A stretch of 64,000 nucleotides of DNA from Terriglobia bacterium (GTDB lineage: Bacteria > Acidobacteriota > Terriglobia > Terriglobales > Acidobacteriaceae), in NCBI GenBank assembly GCA_020073665.1, contig JAIQEU010000007.1, positions 5,001 through 69,000 of the forward strand, in the 5' to 3' direction. Below, in pieces: positions 5,777 through 55,006 of this stretch; position 1 is the first letter of the stretch, and each line of letters starts with the position of its first letter. Both the position numbers and the translations under genes were made by a program. Below the pieces are notes generated by a model that was not told where the DNA came from, did not search any database, and saw only the letters and a program-made list of their open reading frames with translations.

Positions 5777-6388
5777 ATGCTCCGCGTGGCCTCCAGCGAC
5801 GAAGTCTTCACTCTGACCGGGGCTGGAGTAAGTGCCGAAAGCGGTGTTCCGACCTTCCGCGGCGCTGGCGGTCTCTGGCGCAACTATCGCATCGAAGAAA
5901 TCGCTTCGCCACGCGCTTGGCAGCGCGCCCCTCGTTTGGTGTGGGAGTTCTACTCCATGCGTCGCCGGGTGGCGGCCGCAGCCAAACCCAACCCCGCGCA
6001 CTTTGCGCTCGCCAGGCTCGAGCAATCCCTTGGGGACCGCCTTTTTCTTTGCACCCAGAACGTGGACAACCTGCACGAGCAGGCAGGCTCGCAGCGGGTT
6101 GTACACATGCACGGCGAGTTATTCAAGAGCCGCTGCGATCGCTGCTCCCGTTCGCCATTCGGTGACACTCGCACGTACGACCCACCGGCGGAGATACCGA
6201 CCTGCCCGTGTGGCGGGCGTATTCGCCCCCGCGCAAGGACGGTCTATGTCGGTCCTGAGGAGCCTGCCAATCGTTCGTCTTTTACCGATTGCTACGTCGG
6301 AAGAGCAGGTGAGCTATTGCCCAGCCTGTTTGAAGTAGAAGGCTTGTCAGCTAAGAGCGATCGGGCCAGCGACCCGTCGCGACTATGA
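5777..6388 (+). CDS. Sir2-family NAD-dependent deacylase with an internal in-frame gap
   Basis: 203 residues; class III sirtuins are usually about 240-250. Present: GAGVSAESGVPTFRG (15-29), TQNVDNLH (93-100), catalytic His 112 in HGEL, zinc cysteines 120, 123, 143 and 145. After GGRIRP (residue 151) the reading jumps directly to ARTVYVGPEEPANRS and AGELLPSLFEV, which match the normal C terminus. Compared with E. coli CobB from memory, about 47 residues are missing between them, including the WFGE strand and the GTS NAD-binding loop. The frame is kept. The enzyme is probably inactive or strongly altered; a collapsed or deleted segment in the assembly is the alternative. The last ~20 residues are not family sequence. 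It overlaps the next gene by 4 nt. Confidence 0.8.
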   Translation: MLRVASSDEVFTLTGAGVSAESGVPTFRGAGGLWRNYRIEEIASPRAWQRAPRLVWEFYSMRRRVAAAAKPNPAHFALARLEQSLGDRLFLCTQNVDNLHEQAGSQRVVHMHGELFKSRCDRCSRSPFGDTRTYDPPAEIPTCPCGGRIRPRARTVYVGPEEPANRSSFTDCYVGRAGELLPSLFEVEGLSAKSDRASDPSRL

Positions 6389-9389: not shown

Positions 9390-9411
9390 GAGGTAAGTTT
9401 AACAGCAGCAT

Positions 9412-9500
9412 TTGGCACTTAGCATTTAGCACTTGGCCAGGGACCGTCGGTGTCGGCAACAGCCCTACGGCCAAATGCTAATTGCCATGTGCTAACGGCT
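9412..9500. repeat. Inverted pair of 7-bp arrays between polA and the dioxygenase gene
   Basis: Left arm 9412-9439: ttggcac, ttagcat, ttagcac, ttggcca. Right arm 9470-9500: gccaaat, gctaatt, gccatgt, gctaacg, gct. The arms are imperfect reverse complements separated by about 30 bp and could form a long hairpin. The right arm supplies the stop codon of the cysteine dioxygenase gene (9492-9494). Confidence 0.7.
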
Positions 9501-10079
9501 GCTCTTCTTCCCGTATTCCGTCGTGTAGTTCAACTTGATCTCGCCACAGGTGCCCTGTTCCGGCGAATACACCACGCAGCTGTCGAATGGCCGGGAATAC
9601 ACATGCAGGCTGACGGCCCTTTCCTGGAACTCGCGCGGATTGAATACCCGGTGCACTGGCTCGAGCGGATCGACTGCGCAGGGATGGCTCGGATTCATCT
9701 CGACCGTGTCCGCCGGCTCGAGGTGGCAGGTGCCTTCGTCCAAGTCTTGCGAAAGCGTACGGTAGTTCTCGACCAGCAAACGTCCTATCGGCACGGCCAT
9801 CCAGCAGTTCTGGTCGCGATGGTTGTGCACCGAACTGGCCTGGCCAACTTCCCAGCAAATCGCGATTAATTCGTAGAGCGGCGTTTTGTCGATCAGGTTC
9901 CGGGTATAGTGCTGCCGGTCCCAGCACAAGTACGGGGTCAGGCTTTCCGGAGCCACCGGCGCAATCCTGAGAAACCGGATGATCTGGTCGGTAGGGCGGA
10001 ACGCCGACTCATTGAATTTCTGCAGTTCGGAAACAAAATCCTGGATGGAGACCGGTCTGGACATCGCTTGCGTGTTCAT
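9492..10079 (-). CDS. Cysteine dioxygenase
   Basis: 195 residues. A non-heme iron cupin that oxidises L-cysteine to cysteine sulfinate with O2. All positions known from the mammalian enzyme line up: Tyr58 and Arg60 in HYTRNL, iron ligands His85 and His87 in SSVHNH, third ligand His143 in PVHRVF, and Tyr161 in HVYSRP. Cys92 in NCWM matches the cysteine that forms the Cys-Tyr crosslink in the eukaryotic protein, a residue that many bacterial homologues lack. Minus-strand TATACT (10107-10102) and GGGAG ahead of the ATG fit a short-leader promoter. The stop codon lies inside a 7-bp array. Confidence 0.93.
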   Translation of the reverse strand: MNTQAMSRPVSIQDFVSELQKFNESAFRPTDQIIRFLRIAPVAPESLTPYLCWDRQHYTRNLIDKTPLYELIAICWEVGQASSVHNHRDQNCWMAVPIGRLLVENYRTLSQDLDEGTCHLEPADTVEMNPSHPCAVDPLEPVHRVFNPREFQERAVSLHVYSRPFDSCVVYSPEQGTCGEIKLNYTTEYGKKSSR

Positions 10080-12596: not shown

Positions 12597-12638
12597 CCAA
12601 ATACTTCAGCAGCAGTGGTGGCTGGCGGGACGCCGGCG

Positions 12639-14828
12639 CTACTCCCCTCCCAACCGGAACCGCATTCCGAGTCGAAAGTTTCCCCTCAACGCTGGGTATC
12701 CCACTACCTCGTTGTAGTGCTGGTTGAGCGCGTTCTCGATATTGGCGTAGGCCGTGACACGGGAATTGATTGCGTACCAGCCACCCACATCGACCCGGGC
12801 GTAGCCGGCGGCATGATTGATGTGGAAGCCCGAAAAGTCCGCGTCCGGGCGCCGGCCTACAAAGCTTCCGCCCATGTTTCCTCCCCAGCGGTTACCCAGG
12901 TAGGTGAGCAGCACAGTGCCCGAGTGCTTGGGACGCCGCAGCAACGGCGTGCCCTTGGCGAGCAGGGGATCGCAGAAGTTTTGCGGCGTACACTCGGGTG
13001 CCTCCAAGATCTGGGTGGAAGTGTAGGCGTACGCGGAATTCAGCGAGAGCCGGGACAGGAGCTTTCCGCGGAACTCGAATTCAGCTCCCTGGGCGAAAGA
13101 CTTGTCTACATTGACGTATTGGCCGATGAAGTTGATGGGATCGACGGTTCGGTAGTCGACCCGGTCAAAGAACAGATTGTGGTAGTAGGTTGCGGCCAGC
13201 GCATACTTGCCGCCGAACAGGTTCTGCTGCACTCCGGCTTCGAAACTGCGGCTGCGCTCCGCCCTCAGGTTGGGGTTCACGACGCTGAACGGAGGACCGG
13301 CAAACGCTTCCTCCAGCCGCGGCTCTTTGAACCCGGTGGCGTAAGAAAAGCGCAGCTGCGTCCCGGAAAACGTTTGCCCACCCCGCAGCGCCTGCAGGGT
13401 CAACGAGACCCGGGGCACCCCTTTGTTTCCCGAGCTATCGTTGTGCACGAAGCGCGCGCCCGCGACTATCGAGAGCCGGCCCAGGGTCAGCAGTTCCTGT
13501 CCATACACTGCGTGGTTCAGCCGCAGACCATGGAGTAAAGGTGGAAAATTCAAGTCGCCGACAAATCCGTTTTCATCCTCAAATTCATAGCCTACGGTCG
13601 TTCGCGCCCAGGTGCGCTGCTGGAAGTCGCCCTGATATTCGAACCCGGCTCGATTCACGTTGGTAAAGCCGTGGCTGACAAAATCATCCGTGCGGCGTGG
13701 ATCGGAGAACGTATCCACGTTAGTGCGCTTGTGGTTATATTCATACCCGGTGAAGCGATGTTGCCAGCGCGACGGCCCGCTGACGATAAGCTGCACGCTG
13801 CCCAGGAAGTTGTTTTGCCGGGCCCATTGATCGAAATCCGGCGGCTCCAGCGGCGTCCCGTTGAAGTTCCATTCGCCGGGTACGCCGGTGCGGTTGTTGG
13901 AGTGGCGCACGCGCAGGCGCAATCCCACGTGATCACTTAGGGCAACCCCCAAATTGCCACCCTGCAGAGAATTCGAGTATTCCGCGTTTGGCCCTTGCCC
14001 GTTGGTGTTGAACTGGTCGCCAAAGAGGTTGTAATCGAAACGACCGTGCGCGCCGGCCAGGGAGGCATAGCCATTCGCTGTCTCGAAGGTCCCCCCATCC
14101 GCGCCAAAGCGTAGTTCGGGAACCCGGGTGCTCCCCGTCCCGGTCCAGACCTGGACAACGCTGGTCATCGCGTCAGAGCCATACAGCGTGCTCTGCGCGC
14201 CCCGCACAAACTCCAGGCGATCCGCATCGGTCAGCGGAACCACCCCGAGATCCATGGTTCCCCCCGGTTCGTTGACCGGCACCTCGTCGACGATGACCTT
14301 GTTGTAACGGGAATCGCCGCCGCGCACAAACAGCGATGACAGTCCTCCGCGCTGCCCGGAAGTGTCAATGATCGCGCCCGGTAAGAAACGCACAGCGTCA
14401 TCGAGGGCCACCGGGTTCATCACCTCGATCTGGCTGCCGGTCAGGTTCTCTACGTTTGCGCCGGCGGCCTGGCTGGGAATTGGACTACGGGTGGCGGTCA
14501 CAACCACGGTTTCAGAAACATGCCCCAACCGGAGTTGGACAGTGATCGTCTTCGGCCCACTCGGAGGGGCATCCATGGTTTCCGGCGCAAATCCGGGGGC
14601 TAGTATGCGAAGAACATAGGAAGCTTCCCGTAAGCCGCGAAAGGTCACCACTCCTTCGGCCGAGGTGTTCTGCAGACTGGCCGGAGTCGCGTTGCCTTTC
14701 TCCCGCAGCTCCACCTGCGCACCGGCGACGGCGGCGGATTGAGAATCAACGACCTTGATCTTGAGTTCAGCGGCTGAAGCTGCCGCCAACAGGACAATCA
14801 AACAGGCGAGAACTCGAACGAAACGCAC
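12639..14828 (-). CDS. btuB: TonB-dependent outer-membrane receptor, cobalamin type (BtuB-like)
   Basis: 729 residues from GTG 14828. Signal peptide (VRFVRVLACLIVLLAAASAA), a carboxypeptidase-regulatory-like beta domain (about 20-100), a TonB box region SETVVVTATR, plug domain (with LFVRGGDSRYNKVIVDEVPV and VEFVRGAQSTLYG-type sequence), then a 22-strand barrel ending in RLGMRFRLGG. The reading frame is open back to a GTG at 14894, but that codon lies inside the riboswitch aptamer. GTG 14828 has AGGAGG (14840-14835) 6 nt upstream and begins a proper signal peptide. The cobalamin riboswitch upstream indicates that it imports vitamin B12 or another corrinoid. No BtuCDF genes lie next to it. Confidence 0.93.
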   Translation of the reverse strand: MRFVRVLACLIVLLAAASAAELKIKVVDSQSAAVAGAQVELREKGNATPASLQNTSAEGVVTFRGLREASYVLRILAPGFAPETMDAPPSGPKTITVQLRLGHVSETVVVTATRSPIPSQAAGANVENLTGSQIEVMNPVALDDAVRFLPGAIIDTSGQRGGLSSLFVRGGDSRYNKVIVDEVPVNEPGGTMDLGVVPLTDADRLEFVRGAQSTLYGSDAMTSVVQVWTGTGSTRVPELRFGADGGTFETANGYASLAGAHGRFDYNLFGDQFNTNGQGPNAEYSNSLQGGNLGVALSDHVGLRLRVRHSNNRTGVPGEWNFNGTPLEPPDFDQWARQNNFLGSVQLIVSGPSRWQHRFTGYEYNHKRTNVDTFSDPRRTDDFVSHGFTNVNRAGFEYQGDFQQRTWARTTVGYEFEDENGFVGDLNFPPLLHGLRLNHAVYGQELLTLGRLSIVAGARFVHNDSSGNKGVPRVSLTLQALRGGQTFSGTQLRFSYATGFKEPRLEEAFAGPPFSVVNPNLRAERSRSFEAGVQQNLFGGKYALAATYYHNLFFDRVDYRTVDPINFIGQYVNVDKSFAQGAEFEFRGKLLSRLSLNSAYAYTSTQILEAPECTPQNFCDPLLAKGTPLLRRPKHSGTVLLTYLGNRWGGNMGGSFVGRRPDADFSGFHINHAAGYARVDVGGWYAINSRVTAYANIENALNQHYNEVVGYPALRGNFRLGMRFRLGGE

Positions 14829-15906: not shown

Positions 15907-15912
15907 ATTGTA
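15907..15912 (-). promoter_or_regulatory. -10 element (TACAAT) of the DUF374 gene
   Basis: TACAAT, then 6 nt, then GTG 15900: a leaderless arrangement. The hexamer touches the edge of the 7-bp array that starts at 15911. Confidence 0.45.
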
Positions 15913-15978
15913 CCGAGTATCCCGCACCGAGTGCCCTCGGTACCGGGGTTTTGCTCGGTACCAGGTACTGGGTACTCC
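15911..15978. repeat. Inverted pair of 7-bp arrays (tcggtac type)
   Basis: Left arm 15911-15945: taccgag, tatcccg, caccgag, tgccctc, ggtaccg. Right arm 15955-15978: tcggtac, caggtac, tgggtac, tcc. The arms are in inverted orientation. The same unit family recurs at 59277-59306, more than 43 kb away. Confidence 0.65.
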
Positions 15979-43539: not shown

Positions 43540-43566
43540 CTCAAGCGATGGTAGCAAAACCAGCAA

Positions 43567-43660
43567 CTAGCCATTAGCGCTTAGCATCTAGCTTGGGAGG
43601 CTGTAGAAACCCAGCACAAGCATTTGACGGCTAAATGCCAAGTGCTAATTGCTAATGGCT
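43567..43660. repeat. Inverted pair of 7-bp arrays between recG and a small membrane-protein gene
   Basis: Left arm ctagcca, ttagcgc, ttagcat, ctagctt (43567-43594). Right arm gctaaat, gccaagt, gctaatt, gctaatg, gct (43630-43660). The same unit family as 9412-9500. Here the flanking genes are divergent, so a pure terminator role would not explain it. Confidence 0.7.
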
Positions 43661-43676
43661 GGTTTCGGTGTTTCCG

Positions 43677-50418: not shown

Positions 50419-50817
50419 CTACGAAGCCCGTCCGGCAAACGGCAGCAGGGCGATGTTGCGGGCCTGCTTGATAGCCGAGGACAAGCGGCGCTGGTGCGGA
50501 GTACAAACCCCCGTCAGCCGCCGGGGAACAATCTTGCCGCTCTCGGCGACAAACTGCGCCAGCAGCCGGACGTCCTTGTAGTTGATGGCTTCAATCTTTT
50601 CGACGCAGAACTTGCAGACTTTCTTGCGCCGGAAATACTTGCGGCCGCCTTCACGGCCTCCCGGGCCTCCGGGCCCACCCGGCCGGGGAGGACGACGCTC
50701 ACGATCGGGACGCTCGCCGCCACTGGGACGGTCGCCGCCACTGGGGCGGTCGCCACCACTGGGGCGGTCGCCGGAAGACGCTTCGGCACTTGCGGTTGCT
50801 CTGATTTCGTCAGCCAT
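50419..50817 (-). CDS. rpsR: 30S ribosomal protein S18 with repeat-rich N-terminal extension
   Basis: 132 residues; S18 is usually 70-90. The S18 core ([19 protein letters not shown] to [11 protein letters not shown]) follows an extension of about 55 residues made of GGDRPS repeats and [15 protein letters not shown]. The repeats are encoded by 18-bp tandem units (50706-50778). Cys in VCKFC and GVCTPH suggest the zinc-binding form. No extra function is known for such extensions. Confidence 0.96.
50706..50778 (-). repeat. 18-bp tandem repeats inside rpsR
   Basis: About four imperfect copies encoding [12 protein letters not shown], plus-strand unit ggtcgccgccactggggc. In frame, so length changes would keep the S18 core. 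Confidence 0.65.
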
Positions 50818-51297: not shown

Positions 51298-51879
51298 CTA
51301 ATCTTCTGGTTCGGCCTTGCGATTGAAGCGGTTCATCGCTGCAGCCGGGCCCTCTTTCAAGATCACGTTTACGGCCTCGGCGGCAGTATCGAGGACCGCG
51401 TCCACCGCTTTGAGCTGGGCCTTACGAAACGGCGTCAGCACATACTTCACTCCGTCGGTCACCTTCCGGTCGGGCGCAATGCCCAGCCGGATGCGCATGA
51501 ACTCTTGCGTTCCCAGCGCACCGATGATCGATTCCATCCCGTTGTGCCCCGCCGAACTGCCCCGCTGGCGGATACGAATCGTCCCCAACGGCAAATCCAG
51601 TTCGTCGTAAATCACGATCAGGTCAGCCTCTGGCCTGACCTCATGCTTCGCCACCAGGTCCCGCACCGACATCCCGCTCAGGTTCATGTAGGTCTCCGGC
51701 TTGGCCAGGAGAACCGGCTCTGAACCGACCACCGCCCGGGCAGTCAGCGCATGGCAATTGCGGTTTCTCACTTCCACCTTGCATTGTTCGGCAAGGCGAT
51801 CGATGGTGAGGAATCCCAAATTGTGGGGCGTGAACTGGTACTCAATACCGGGATTGCCCAGCCCGACGATCAGTTTCAC
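51298..51879 (-). CDS. pth: Peptidyl-tRNA hydrolase
   Basis: 193 residues. It frees tRNA from stalled peptidyl-tRNA. MKLIVGLGNPGIEYQFTPHNLGF (catalytic His in PHN), PETYMNLSG, VIYDELDLPLG and GSSAGHNGMESII are all present. Confidence 0.97.
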   Translation of the reverse strand: MKLIVGLGNPGIEYQFTPHNLGFLTIDRLAEQCKVEVRNRNCHALTARAVVGSEPVLLAKPETYMNLSGMSVRDLVAKHEVRPEADLIVIYDELDLPLGTIRIRQRGSSAGHNGMESIIGALGTQEFMRIRLGIAPDRKVTDGVKYVLTPFRKAQLKAVDAVLDTAAEAVNVILKEGPAAAMNRFNRKAEPED

Positions 51880-51883
51880 GCAA

Positions 51884-51962
51884 TCAGCTCTCAGCCCTCA
51901 GCTTTCAGCCCTCAGCAACCCGCGACTTGAAGGGCCAAAGGCCAACGACGAACAACCAACAA
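51884..51962. repeat. Two 7-bp arrays between rplY and pth
   Basis: First array tcagctc, tcagccc, tcagctt, tcagccc, tcagcaa (51884-51918). Second array ggccaaa, ggccaac, gacgaac, aaccaac (51933-51960), which reaches the rplY stop (51965-51963). The two have different units but the same step. Confidence 0.7.
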
Positions 51963-52691
51963 CTATTTCTTTTCTTTCTTCTCGGGCTTCTCCGGCTTCT
52001 CGGGAGCGGCCTCGGCACCTTCCGCACCCTCGACCTCCTGCTTGCCCTTCTTGATGACTTCGGGTTCGGCAGGAGCTGCGCCTGCTTCCGCAGCCACCGC
52101 TTCCGGCGTAGCCACCACTTCTTCCTTCACGGAGACCACGTGGGCCACCGGCTGGTTGGCATCGGTCAGGAACCTGAGTTTCTCGCTGCGCGGCAGGTCC
52201 GACACCCGCAGCACCTTGCCGTGCACCAGGTGACTGACATCGGCCTCGATCGAGCTGGGAATATCGGCCGGCAAGCACTCGATTTCCACTTCCCGCAGGA
52301 TCTGCTCCAGAATGCCGCCTTCTTGCTTCACGCCCGCCGCTTCGCCCTTCAGCACAATGGGCACGCCGACCGTGAGTTTCTGGTCCATGGCGATGCGCTT
52401 GAGGTCGATGTGCAGCAGCGATCCCTTGATCGGCTCATACTGCCAGTCCACGATCATGGCCTTGCTGCGCTCGCCTGCCAGGGTGAGGTCGCAAATCGTG
52501 TTGTACCCGGTCTTGGAATGCAGAATGCGCGAAACCTGGCGCGGATCAAGGCTCACCGGGGTCGCCTGTTTGCCGGCTCCATAAACCACGGCGGGAATCT
52601 TGCCGCCACTGCGCACCCGGCGGGCATCGTTCTTGCTGCCCGGTGTCCGCGGTTGCGCTTCCAGAATGTTGCTTTCGGTTGCAGTTGCCAT
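51963..52691 (-). CDS. rplY: 50S ribosomal protein L25 (CTC/TL5 type)
   Basis: 242 residues. N-terminal 5S-rRNA-binding L25 domain (ILEAQPRTPGSKNDARRVR, GGKIPAVVYGAGK), C-terminal TL5 beta domain (KRIAMDQKLTVGVPIVLKG), then a charged tail rich in Glu/Lys/Pro. It lies 15 nt downstream of prs. Confidence 0.95.
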   Translation of the reverse strand: MATATESNILEAQPRTPGSKNDARRVRSGGKIPAVVYGAGKQATPVSLDPRQVSRILHSKTGYNTICDLTLAGERSKAMIVDWQYEPIKGSLLHIDLKRIAMDQKLTVGVPIVLKGEAAGVKQEGGILEQILREVEIECLPADIPSSIEADVSHLVHGKVLRVSDLPRSEKLRFLTDANQPVAHVVSVKEEVVATPEAVAAEAGAAPAEPEVIKKGKQEVEGAEGAEAAPEKPEKPEKKEKK

Positions 52692-52706
52692 AATTTTGAT
52701 TCCTGT

Positions 52707-53732
52707 TTACAAAAACAATTTGCTGACGGACGTTTCTTCGTGAATCGACTGGATCGCCCGTCCGATCAAACCAGCGATAGAAAGCACTTTAATCTTCGGT
52801 TCCTGCCGGGCCGCTTCTGACAAGGGGATGGTATTGGTTACCACCACTTCGGCAATGCAGGACTTGGCAATGTTCTCGACCGCCGGGCCGGACAGCACAG
52901 CGTGCGAGGCGCAGGCATAAACCTCGCGCGCGCCATTTTCCAGCAGCGCACTGGCCGTCTTCACCAGCGTGCCGGCCGTGTCGATCAGATCGTCGATCAC
53001 GAGGCAAGTACGGCCGTGGACGTCTCCGATCACGTGCATGACTTCGGCGACATTCATTTCCACGCGGCGCTTGTCGACGATGGCCAGCGCGGCATCCATC
53101 TTCTTGGCAAAAAACCGGGCGCGTTCCACGCCGCCCGCATCCGGTGAAACCACCGTGAGGTTGGGCAGGTTCAGCCGCTTGAAGTGGTCCACCAGCACCG
53201 GGGAAGCGAACAGGTGGTCCACCGGAATATTGAAAAAACCTTGCAACTGCGGCGCGTGCAGGTCTACGACCAGGGCCCGGTCCGCGCCCGCGGTGGTCAG
53301 CAGGTCGGCGACCAGCTTGGACGAAATCGGAACCCGCGGCTTGTCTTTGCGGTCCTGGCGCGCGTAACCGTAGTACGGAATCACCGCGGTGATGCGCCGG
53401 GCCGAAGCCCGCTTCAGCGCGTCCATCATCAGCAGCAACTCCATCAGGTGCTGATCGACGGGCTGGCAGGTCGGCTGCATCAGGAATACATCGCAGCCGC
53501 GGACGTTCTCCTGGATCTGCACGTAGGCTTCGCCATCCCGGAAGCGCGTGACCAGGGCCTGCCCGCGCGTCAGCCCCAGGAAGGCGCAGACCTCGTCGCA
53601 CAGCGGCTCGTTGGCCGTGCCGCAGAAGATCTTGAACTTATCGTCCACGCGGGCACGCTGGGGCTTGCGCTCCGGTTTTTCGTCGGCGCTCATCTGGCCC
53701 TTCTTCTCCGTCGCTGTCGCAAGAGTTGCCAT
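52707..53732 (-). CDS. prs: Ribose-phosphate pyrophosphokinase
   Basis: 341 residues. It makes PRPP from ribose-5-phosphate and ATP for nucleotides, His and Trp. DGEAYVQIQENVRGCDVF, YYGYARQDRK, VVDLHAPQLQGFF, VVSPDAGGVERA and the PRPP loop LVIDDLIDTAGT are clear. A non-conserved N-terminal extension of about 30 residues precedes KFKIFCGTANEPL; a start at Met14 is possible. Confidence 0.97.
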   Translation of the reverse strand: MATLATATEKKGQMSADEKPERKPQRARVDDKFKIFCGTANEPLCDEVCAFLGLTRGQALVTRFRDGEAYVQIQENVRGCDVFLMQPTCQPVDQHLMELLLMMDALKRASARRITAVIPYYGYARQDRKDKPRVPISSKLVADLLTTAGADRALVVDLHAPQLQGFFNIPVDHLFASPVLVDHFKRLNLPNLTVVSPDAGGVERARFFAKKMDAALAIVDKRRVEMNVAEVMHVIGDVHGRTCLVIDDLIDTAGTLVKTASALLENGAREVYACASHAVLSGPAVENIAKSCIAEVVVTNTIPLSEAARQEPKIKVLSIAGLIGRAIQSIHEETSVSKLFL

Positions 53733-53736
53733 CGAT

Positions 53737-53832
53737 TTTAGCCTTTAGCTTTTGGCTCTTAGCCTCTAGCCCAACCCTGCAGCCGCTAGCTCCCGTGCCA
53801 AGCTACGAGCTAAGGGCTAACGGCTAAGAGCT
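53737..53832. repeat. Inverted pair of 7-bp arrays between tRNA-Gln and prs
   Basis: Left arm tttagcc, tttagct, tttggct, cttagcc, tctagcc (53737-53771). Right arm gctacga, gctaagg, gctaacg, gctaaga, gct (53802-53832). The arms are reverse complements; this is the clearest example in the window. Confidence 0.75.
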
Positions 53833-53837
53833 GATTC

Positions 53838-53911
53838 TGGCTGGGCCGCTAGGATTCGAACCTAGACAAAGTGCTCCAAAGGCACTTGACCTACCATTAG
53901 TCGACGGCCCA
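53838..53911 (-). tRNA. tRNA-Gln (anticodon UUG)
   Basis: 74 nt including an encoded CCA. Acceptor TGGGCCG/CGGCCCA (7 bp, U1-A72 typical for tRNA-Gln), anticodon stem AGTGC/GCACT with loop CTTTGGA (anticodon TTG), T-arm TAGGTTCGAATCCTA. It lies between ispE and prs and is flanked on both sides by inverted 7-bp arrays. Confidence 0.96.
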
Positions 53912-53918
53912 AAACCCG

Positions 53919-54007
53919 GTTTCCAGTTTCCGGTTTCCAGTTGCGAGAAAAAACTGTATGAGAGACCACCAGTTTACTCGAAACTAGAAACCGGAAACTA
54001 GAAACTT
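53919..54007. repeat. Inverted pair of 7-bp arrays between ispE and tRNA-Gln
   Basis: Left arm gtttcca, gtttccg, gtttcca (53919-53939). Right arm gaaacta, gaaaccg, gaaacta, gaaactt (53980-54007). Perfect or near-perfect inverted units. The right arm provides the last codons and stop of ispE. Confidence 0.75.
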
Positions 54008-55006
54008 CTTCCAGTACTGCGGCCGAGTCAGAGTGGTCGAAACCACCGCTGGGATGCCGTCGCTGCGCAACCGGGCCGCAGCCTTCGCCGCTGCCGCCCG
54101 CGATCTGAACAACCCGTAAGTCGCCGAACCGGAGCCGGACAGCGAAGCATAAGAAGCGCCGCCGCGCCCGAGCACACGCTTGACCCCACGCAATTCGGGA
54201 TATTGAGGAAAGACGACTTGTTCGAAGTCGTTTTCGATCCCGGTACGGACGAGGTCGAGAAGCGGGGTCTCGGCCCGGCCCCTGCCTTTGCTCACAGGGA
54301 CACCGGATAAAGCCCTCCCAGACTTGGCGTTGCTCTGGGACTGACCGCTCAGCCACGCAGATACGGTGCGGCCGAACAACAACATTCTATCGGAGGGGGA
54401 GAAAGGCGTCAATTTTCCGGATGCCGAGCCGTCCGCGCCATTCAACCTCCGGTCCCAGTCGGCGAATGCTTTCGGCGTCGAAACCCCGATGTCTGGCGTG
54501 GCCACCACACACACCGTCTGAGGCAGGTCCGGCAGGGGATAGACCTCTTCGCCGCGGCCAACTCCCAGAACCGTTCCCCCGACCAGGAACAAAGGCAGAT
54601 CGGAGCCCACCTCGGCCGCGATCCGCAACCGCTCGGGAGCCGGCATGGTCTTCTGCAACACACGTTCCACCGCGACCAGTGCCGCCACTGCGTTGGCAGA
54701 AGCTCCCCCGAGCCCACCTTGTACCGGCAGGCGCTTCTCGATTTCGATGATCACCCGGCCGCGCGCCTTGAGCACCGCCAGCGCCCGCGCCACCAGCCGA
54801 TAGCAAGTATTGGATTCATCGGTCGGCACCCGCGGGTCGTCGCAGCGGATCTCAATTCCACTGCCCCGCGCGAGGTGTACCCGGACCACGTCATGCAATG
54901 CGATGGTCTGGTACACCGTGCGCAGTTCGTGGAAACCGTCTGGACGCAGCGCGCCAATGTGCAAGCCGAGGTTGATCTTGGCGAAAGATCGTACGGTTAC
55001 GGGCAT
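53984..55006 (-). CDS. ispE: 4-diphosphocytidyl-2-C-methyl-D-erythritol kinase
   Basis: 340 residues. A GHMP kinase of the MEP pathway. SFAKINLGLHIGALRPDGFHEL at the start, the ATP loop PVQGGLGGASANA, and SGSGSATYGLF near the end. An insert of about 45 low-complexity residues (SGKLTPFSPSDRM... to RGRAETPLL) lies before the last third. ATG 55006; the frame is open to 55102. The C-terminal residues LVSGF and the stop are translated from a 7-bp array. Confidence 0.95.
   Translation of the reverse strand: MPVTVRSFAKINLGLHIGALRPDGFHELRTVYQTIALHDVVRVHLARGSGIEIRCDDPRVPTDESNTCYRLVARALAVLKARGRVIIEIEKRLPVQGGLGGASANAVAALVAVERVLQKTMPAPERLRIAAEVGSDLPLFLVGGTVLGVGRGEEVYPLPDLPQTVCVVATPDIGVSTPKAFADWDRRLNGADGSASGKLTPFSPSDRMLLFGRTVSAWLSGQSQSNAKSGRALSGVPVSKGRGRAETPLLDLVRTGIENDFEQVVFPQYPELRGVKRVLGRGGASYASLSGSGSATYGLFRSRAAAAKAAARLRSDGIPAVVSTTLTRPQYWKKFLVSGF

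Follow-up and report, generated by a model that had tools for sequence, protein, structure and literature searches.

Inverted heptanucleotide arrays flanking a tRNA-Gln gene belong to a dispersed class of intergenic hairpins in an Acidobacteriaceae genome

Two pairs of inverted 7-bp arrays enclose a single tRNA-Gln gene in a Terriglobia bacterium (Acidobacteriaceae), and the two pairs are built of different words. Is this arrangement a property of the tRNA, and what keeps the arms complementary when their words change? The locus lies in a 64,000-nt stretch of DNA, referred to here as the window, from a genome of 5.42 Mb. The minus strand carries ispE, tRNA-Gln(TTG), prs, rplY (encoding L25) and pth in this order, as assigned with ARAGORN and NCBIfam models. 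Among the matches listed, a set from which records of the same genome may be absent, the closest named relatives of prs come from an Acidobacteriaceae assembly (86% identity) and an Acidobacteriales assembly (84%).

The tRNA gene (anticodon TTG; 53838–53911, minus strand) scores 61.7 bits with the Rfam tRNA model. It is preceded by ispE (CDP-ME kinase; 53984–55006, minus strand, with the start taken from a simple gene-calling script and the longest open reading frame reaching 55102) and followed by prs (ribose-phosphate diphosphokinase; 52707–53732, minus strand). Tandem Repeats Finder (TRF) places period-7 arrays at 53737–53771, 53809–53832, 53919–53942 and 53976–54006. On each side of the tRNA the two arrays are inverted repeats of one another, and the word differs between the sides; the initial annotation had described the locus in these terms, and TRF, ARAGORN and NCBIfam bear it out. 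We refer to the ispE–tRNA gap as gap 1, containing hairpin A, and to the tRNA–prs gap as gap 2, containing hairpin B, so that the order on the transcribed strand is ispE, hairpin A, tRNA-Gln, hairpin B, prs.

Hairpin A is of the GTTTCYA word class. As delimited by TRF and folding, its 5′ arm on the transcribed strand (GTTTCYA-type heptads; 53976–54006, minus strand) overlaps the 3′ terminus of ispE, with the TAG stop codon of that gene (53984–53986) inside the heptad array. The 3′ arm (GGAAACY-type; 53916–53945, minus strand) ends 4–7 nt ahead of the tRNA. Hairpin B is of the YTAGCYY class. Its 5′ arm (TTAGCYY-type; 53802–53832, minus strand) starts about 5 nt past the tRNA 3′ end, and the array of its 3′ arm (RRGCTAA-type; 53737–53772, minus strand) extends to 4 nt from the prs ATG, with its outermost units outside the main stem in the predicted fold. 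Both pairs fold on themselves, as had been proposed. Hairpin A has a predicted energy of −51.0 kcal/mol on the transcribed strand (z −10.0) and −41.4 kcal/mol on the other strand (z −8.7), with none of 200 shuffles as good in either case. For hairpin B the values are −50.3 kcal/mol (z −3.95, matched by none of 200 shuffles) and −39.8 kcal/mol (z −2.1, matched by 6 of 200). An Rfam search of window positions 51800–54300 (E up to 1) returns the tRNA as the sole match above the gathering score; miRNA-model matches fall far under it, and no intron family or group I intron is found there. A promoter consensus scan of 53600–54200 finds no promoter. The hairpin A loop is at most a candidate site for a tRNA promoter, since words resembling a −10 element are only mildly enriched between −70 and −50.

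The census of such hairpins covered 1.124 Mb of the same genome (704 gaps), 140 kb of a relative, G028 (99 gaps), and 20 loci from 20 genomes of the family (307 gaps), with genes called throughout by the simple script trained on the first genome and with gaps from 40 bp to about 1,200 bp counted. Heptad-built arms are present in 54 of the 99 intergenic inverted repeats of the own genome, in 4/16 of those in the relative and in 41/66 of those in the family loci. The combined count is 99 heptad hairpins in 1,110 gaps, found with an ungapped detector that misses hairpins with bulges; because the family loci centre on prs, the prs-flanking hairpins among these 99, and among the 77 considered below, are orthologues and do not count as independent. 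When all 1,110 gaps were dinucleotide-shuffled three times, 37 hairpins resulted, one of them with lag 7. Among the 80 periodic inverted-repeat arms of the own genome, 54 have lag 7 and the runner-up lag accounts for 7. Across 464 kb of the own genome, intergenic DNA has 4.86 lag-7 self-matches per kb; lag 14 gives 1.29 per kb and no other lag between 4 and 25 exceeds 0.29 per kb. The lag-7 density of coding DNA in the same 464 kb is 0.17 per kb.

Three further heptad hairpins from the census lie in the window, none assigned to a strand: a TTAGC-type hairpin at 43557–43665 and a GTACCGA-type hairpin at 15910–15975, both in divergent gaps, and a TTAGCAY-type hairpin at 9401–9506. Hairpins A and B are members of a dispersed, genome-wide class of inverted heptad arrays and no peculiarity of tRNA-Gln. 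Elsewhere in the genome a 3.5-kb segment (G000:C16:212896-216396) holds a run of five heptad hairpins in which the first three share one word class and the last two share a second. A different repeat, 3.7 tandem copies of an 18-bp unit with 91% matches (TRF), occupies 50707–50773 of the window within a called open reading frame (50419–50817).

Heptad hairpins are concentrated at gene 3′ ends. They occur in 69/730 co-directional, 16/159 convergent and 6/221 divergent gaps, and with stratification by gap length the odds ratio for gaps holding a gene 3′ end over divergent gaps is 4.2 (p 0.0009). Of the 77 hairpins in co-directional gaps, 65 either overlap the upstream stop codon or start no more than 30 nt from it (median 6 nt). 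Ten of the remaining 12 start no more than 30 nt past tRNA-Gln in the prs gap, each in a different genome. Because many gaps are short, the next start codon also lies within 30 nt of the hairpin end in 42 of the 77. The arm that is read first is pyrimidine-richer in 71 hairpins, poorer in 21 and equal in 7. The arms contain slightly more stop codons than shuffled sequence (1.01 and 1.31 frames versus 0.70 and 0.81), and several word classes contain none. A tRNA-specific element was rejected: a heptad hairpin lies within 40 nt of 11 of the 31 tRNAs in the examined sequence, all 11 being the tRNA-Gln(TTG) beside prs, which contributes 21 copies to the 31, and most heptad hairpins lie away from tRNAs.

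The two arms of one hairpin use nearly the same word. In the first census of 60 hairpins, arm words differ by at most one of seven letters in 51 (mean difference 0.82), compared with a mean of 3.11 between hairpins and 3.40 for random words. Words spreading between neighbouring hairpins were considered and rejected, the 19 pairs within 5 kb being as alike as expected (permutation p 0.20). Among 59 strict arrays, 27 have an inverted partner that lies no more than 120 bp away and exceeds the 95th percentile of controls; a direct partner exceeds that percentile in 0/59, a count to be read with the detector's fusion of directly adjacent arrays in mind. For the other 32 arrays no inverted partner rises above controls. 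Array pairing is thus strongly inverted, yet not obligatory.

The two prs gaps were followed through relatives. prs was found in 58 of the 60 family genomes searched, and 30 loci were compared, one per genus and including the own locus; in two of them (L033 and L038) the prs start pattern failed and a fixed length was substituted. tRNA-Gln adjoins prs in 30/30. A strict heptad hairpin is present in 12/30 genera in gap 1 and in 12/30 in gap 2, and is absent from 18/30 for each gap; with the gaps cut otherwise the counts are 12/30 and 11/29. Gap-1 words are of GTTTCYA, GATTGTT or GTCGTTG types and gap-2 words of TTAGCYY, TCAGCYY, CAGTTCT, CAGGTCT, GTCGTTG or GTACCGA types, so that the same gap carries different words in different relatives, matched in both arms. 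Within one genus of 24 genomes (22 with prs, of which 20 gave usable new loci in addition to the reference), 17/20 loci have a strict heptad hairpin in gap 2 and 5/20 in gap 1. Words differ even between sisters: L024 and L030 (node support 100/98) carry GATTTTC and GTTTCTA in gap 1, and L176 and L177 (100/100) carry CAGGTCT and CAGTTCT in gap 2, each paired in both arms. In gap 1 of L034 the stem is 8-periodic.

Compensatory changes between the arms, which the initial annotation had named as the observation to seek in relatives, are present. In a 21-row alignment of gap 2, 83.4% of cells are paired versus 80.3% after shuffling (0/500 as high), and at most 47.9% are paired when the alignment is slid by 1–3 columns, the reference structure being folded from a single row and hence biased towards the unslid alignment. 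Both sides have changed in 22 cells versus a shuffled mean of 12.1 (0/500). The RNAalifold consensus of the same alignment is weak (−5.2 kcal/mol, with both sides changed in 5 of 15 pairs). The main compensatory change is CAGTTCT to CAGGTCT in both arms, which converts T-A to G-C at several equivalent columns together. L168 and L169 differ by the loss of exactly one unit from one arm only.

The four rows with CAGGTCT fall at four places on the prs tree, and at one of these the sister row, with support 100/100, carries CAGTTCT. Among the rows assigned to word classes, this tree implies at least 14 word changes in gap 1 and at least 9 in gap 2; the tree is of prs alone with unsettled bootstrap, and the history may include transfer or assembly mixing. 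The classes are our own regular-expression bins, which leave 16/50 gap-1 rows and 14/50 gap-2 rows unclassed and misjudge some, such as L020, unclassed in gap 1 despite a detected heptad hairpin. Gap-1 labels are somewhat clustered on the tree (21 changes versus a shuffled mean of 26.8, as low in 1/200 shuffles). One locus assigned to the genus of G028 (L178) is placed outside that genus.

Functional RNA stems are usually demonstrated by compensatory change. Selection on an RNA hairpin, which would end, process or protect the ispE, tRNA-Gln and prs transcripts and keep its arms complementary by compensatory selection, is a possible account that we consider rather unlikely. The anchoring behind stop codons and the tRNA, the scarcity of hairpins in divergent gaps, the covariation above controls and the recurrence of hairpins in the same gap across many genera all speak for it. 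If compensation proceeded stepwise by way of G·U pairs, G·T mismatches should outnumber A·C mismatches on the transcript. The 77 co-directional heptad hairpins have 74 G·T and 66 A·C (fraction 0.53, CI 0.44–0.61), in a comparison that has no positive control, non-heptad hairpins being equally unbiased: an early G·T excess in the co-directional members of that group (34 versus 17) vanished in a larger set (53 versus 46). Taken by itself, gap 1 has more G·T than A·C (20 versus 9, p 0.06), which favours this account, and hairpin A may accordingly exert an RNA effect; in gap 2 A·C is the commoner (31 versus 22 G·T). The 18 of 30 genera without a strict hairpin in each gap and the 32 of 59 unpartnered arrays also weigh against RNA selection, as does the lack of a U-tract. 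Downstream of the 77 hairpins the T fraction is 0.26 and TTTT follows 12, and an intrinsic terminator was rejected on these grounds; a scan limited to loops of 3–8 nt finds no terminator-like site at hairpin A or B. Some RNA role of the heptad hairpins is nonetheless possible.

A further observation against RNA selection comes from the same gene row. In the L25–pth gap (51884–51967, minus strand) TRF identifies two facing heptad arrays whose words differ, one of GTTGTTGG type and the other of GCTGAGG type, and the ungapped detector finds no good pairing between them. This counter-example may be a half-switched hairpin. The same gap is similarly mixed in three relatives (L140, L145 and L153) and has matched arms in three others (L148, L157 and L158); the remaining loci have other repeats or none. 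In L144 the gap contains a long near-perfect inverted repeat of CACAGAG-like units.

Generation and homogenization at the DNA level fit the data better than maintenance of an RNA structure. The best explanation, in which we place about even confidence, is 7-bp slippage combined with template switching between the arms and retention at gene 3′ ends. Arms would grow and shrink by one 7-bp unit through slippage. The replicating strand may fold back and the polymerase switch template, one arm being rewritten from the other, and new words would thereby enter both arms together. Owing to the periodicity of the arrays, a register shift could accommodate a unit gained or lost in one arm. Hairpins would be retained behind stop codons or RNA 3′ ends because promoters are undisturbed there. 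We infer this combination from the concerted T-A to G-C changes at several columns, for which there is no simple G·U intermediate, and from the equality of G·T and A·C together with the one-unit loss in one arm between L168 and L169. After excision of the tRNA, the anatomy of the locus would leave, as a guess, an ispE mRNA with a 3′ hairpin and a prs mRNA with a 5′ hairpin.

Loop inversion is a rare hallmark of local template switching. No such footprint emerged (0/231 pairs in gap 1 and 1/465 in gap 2), which counts against template switching, and we also count against the favoured explanation the prs-only tree with its unsettled bootstrap and the weak RNAalifold consensus. The earlier proposal, that the hairpin or the inverted order rather than the letters is maintained or generated, thus stands in part. 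Words change yet match across the arms, and inverted partners outnumber direct ones (27 versus 0 of 59). Maintenance of an RNA structure does not follow, given the lack of a G·U preference and the 32 of 59 arrays without a partner, nor does any special tie to one tRNA, hairpins being genome-wide. Template switching has been proposed to create RNA hairpins and also to keep them, the evidence for maintenance being called “circumstantial” by the authors in the part of their paper used here (PMC8794818).

Slippage with template switching does not explain why loci share a lexicon or why one word returns in parallel; copying that is purely local would predict neither a small lexicon at unrelated loci and in many genera nor the four separate appearances of CAGGTCT. 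A bolder reading, which we regard as unlikely, is that paired heptad arrays behind gene ends form a genome-wide, multi-phylum class with a limited 7-letter lexicon exchanged between loci, both arms being rewritten together by an unrecognized copying process while their position stays constant.

The lexicon could also belong to small REP/RAYT-like or MITE-like mobile elements that would insert themselves behind genes and displace each other, an account that we find quite improbable. Unit words are common to unrelated loci and genera, with 153 pairs within one letter, whereas 200 sets of shuffled units average 29.9 such pairs and never exceed 44; parallel word switches are repeated, and the own genome has five Y1_Tnp matches. 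These points favour mobility. In BLAST comparisons of the 54 own-genome hairpins, however, 101 of 1,431 hairpin pairs cross-match in their arms, but among the 44 loops of at least 15 nt a single pair matches, over 12 bp. Conservation of the whole element between copies, as in a MITE or transposon, is therefore not seen among these 54 hairpins. A REP/RAYT element was rejected, as none of the five Y1_Tnp loci (2.8–3.3 kb each) has a heptad hairpin. Near some Y1_Tnp genes of this genome lies a separate, non-heptad palindrome, CCCACTCAAGCC plus its complement, found at L241 601–637, which is the same copy as L243 1970–2006 in an overlapping locus, and twice in L244 (1085–1115 and 1762–1792). The palindrome and these genes are a candidate for the true REP/RAYT set.

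Ordinary heptamer slippage repeats, paired by chance and through shared words, are a most improbable and already disfavoured explanation: heptamers are reported to be the commonest class of long simple repeats in most surveyed genomes, with polymerase slippage proposed (as cited in the consulted parts of PMC4692102 and PMC4679880), and unpaired and mismatched arrays do exist, but the preference for inverted over direct partners and the far greater likeness of arm words within than between hairpins argue against it.

The closest known case to these heptad hairpins is the P6b stem of the Nostoc tRNA-Leu intron. As far as the excerpted reports describe it, degenerate heptanucleotide repeats pair into a hairpin (PMC3488679), and the stem always belongs to one of two heptad classes, with repeated whole-stem replacement of one class by the other inferred, with one-sided loss or gain of a 7-nt unit (PMC4476775). 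The hairpins described here likewise have complementary arms of degenerate 7-nt repeats and alternative word classes at the same site with repeated switching, the latter judged on a one-gene tree and our own word bins, and the loss between L168 and L169 matches the one-sided change. Unlike P6b, a single stem in one cyanobacterial intron, they comprise many intergenic stems per genome with more words, at gene 3′ ends and in Acidobacteriota, and the Rfam search of 51800–54300 gives no group I intron.

Other heptamer repeats are less similar. The heptanucleotide tandem repeats of cyanobacteria are known as STRRs. Heptamers are over-represented among bacterial simple repeats, for which polymerase slippage has been proposed (as cited in PMC4692102 and PMC4679880, in the parts consulted). 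Intergenic heptamer arrays, including the GGGNATC-type of Xanthomonas and Nostoc, vary in length between relatives and, as far as the available part of PMC4692102 goes, are tandem with a G-rich main word, whereas the arrays here form inverted pairs of many words with no direct partner arrays. The TAACTGA heptamers of Beggiatoaceae are also intergenic, with many sets per genome; unlike the heptad hairpins, they are described in the sections of PMC4679880 drawn on as one fixed word in direct orientation, mostly upstream of start codons, with a single inverted case.

Dispersed extragenic palindromes are also formed by REP/BIME elements with RAYT transposases. The heptad hairpins resemble these in being dispersed and extragenic, and differ in their many words, their unrelated loops and their absence from the five Y1_Tnp loci. 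Among the literature matches listed, in a search whose coverage leaves out most subscription journals, no account treats paired inverted heptads as a genome-wide class, and within that same coverage we found no Acidobacteria-specific literature on such repeats.

Because the arms covary at many sites per genome without an RNA-type strand bias, the published idea that template switching makes and keeps hairpins becomes testable on a large natural sample. Methods that search for RNA structures may call such stems functional from covariation alone. The oddity of the Nostoc P6b stem also gains a wider bacterial context.

With a common detector, heptad hairpins are found in 12 of 20 loci of the family and in 4 of 20 loci of other families in the phylum. 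Among loci retrieved as prs relatives they occur in 7 of 32 with acidobacterial titles or grouping and in 6 of 48 others, from other phyla or unassigned; one Nitrospirae contig supplies 6 of the 11 hairpins in these 48, and a few are doubtful. Granulicella is represented among the loci that carry a heptad hairpin (L042). An Acidobacteriaceae contig (L047) has GGGAACA-type heptad arrays at 1983–2037, 6226–6284 and 12637–12687, with no hairpin detected. Long inverted heptad pairs of quite different words are present in five further loci (L062, L072, L104, L061 and L060), from Nitrospirae, a deltaproteobacterium and other Acidobacteria.
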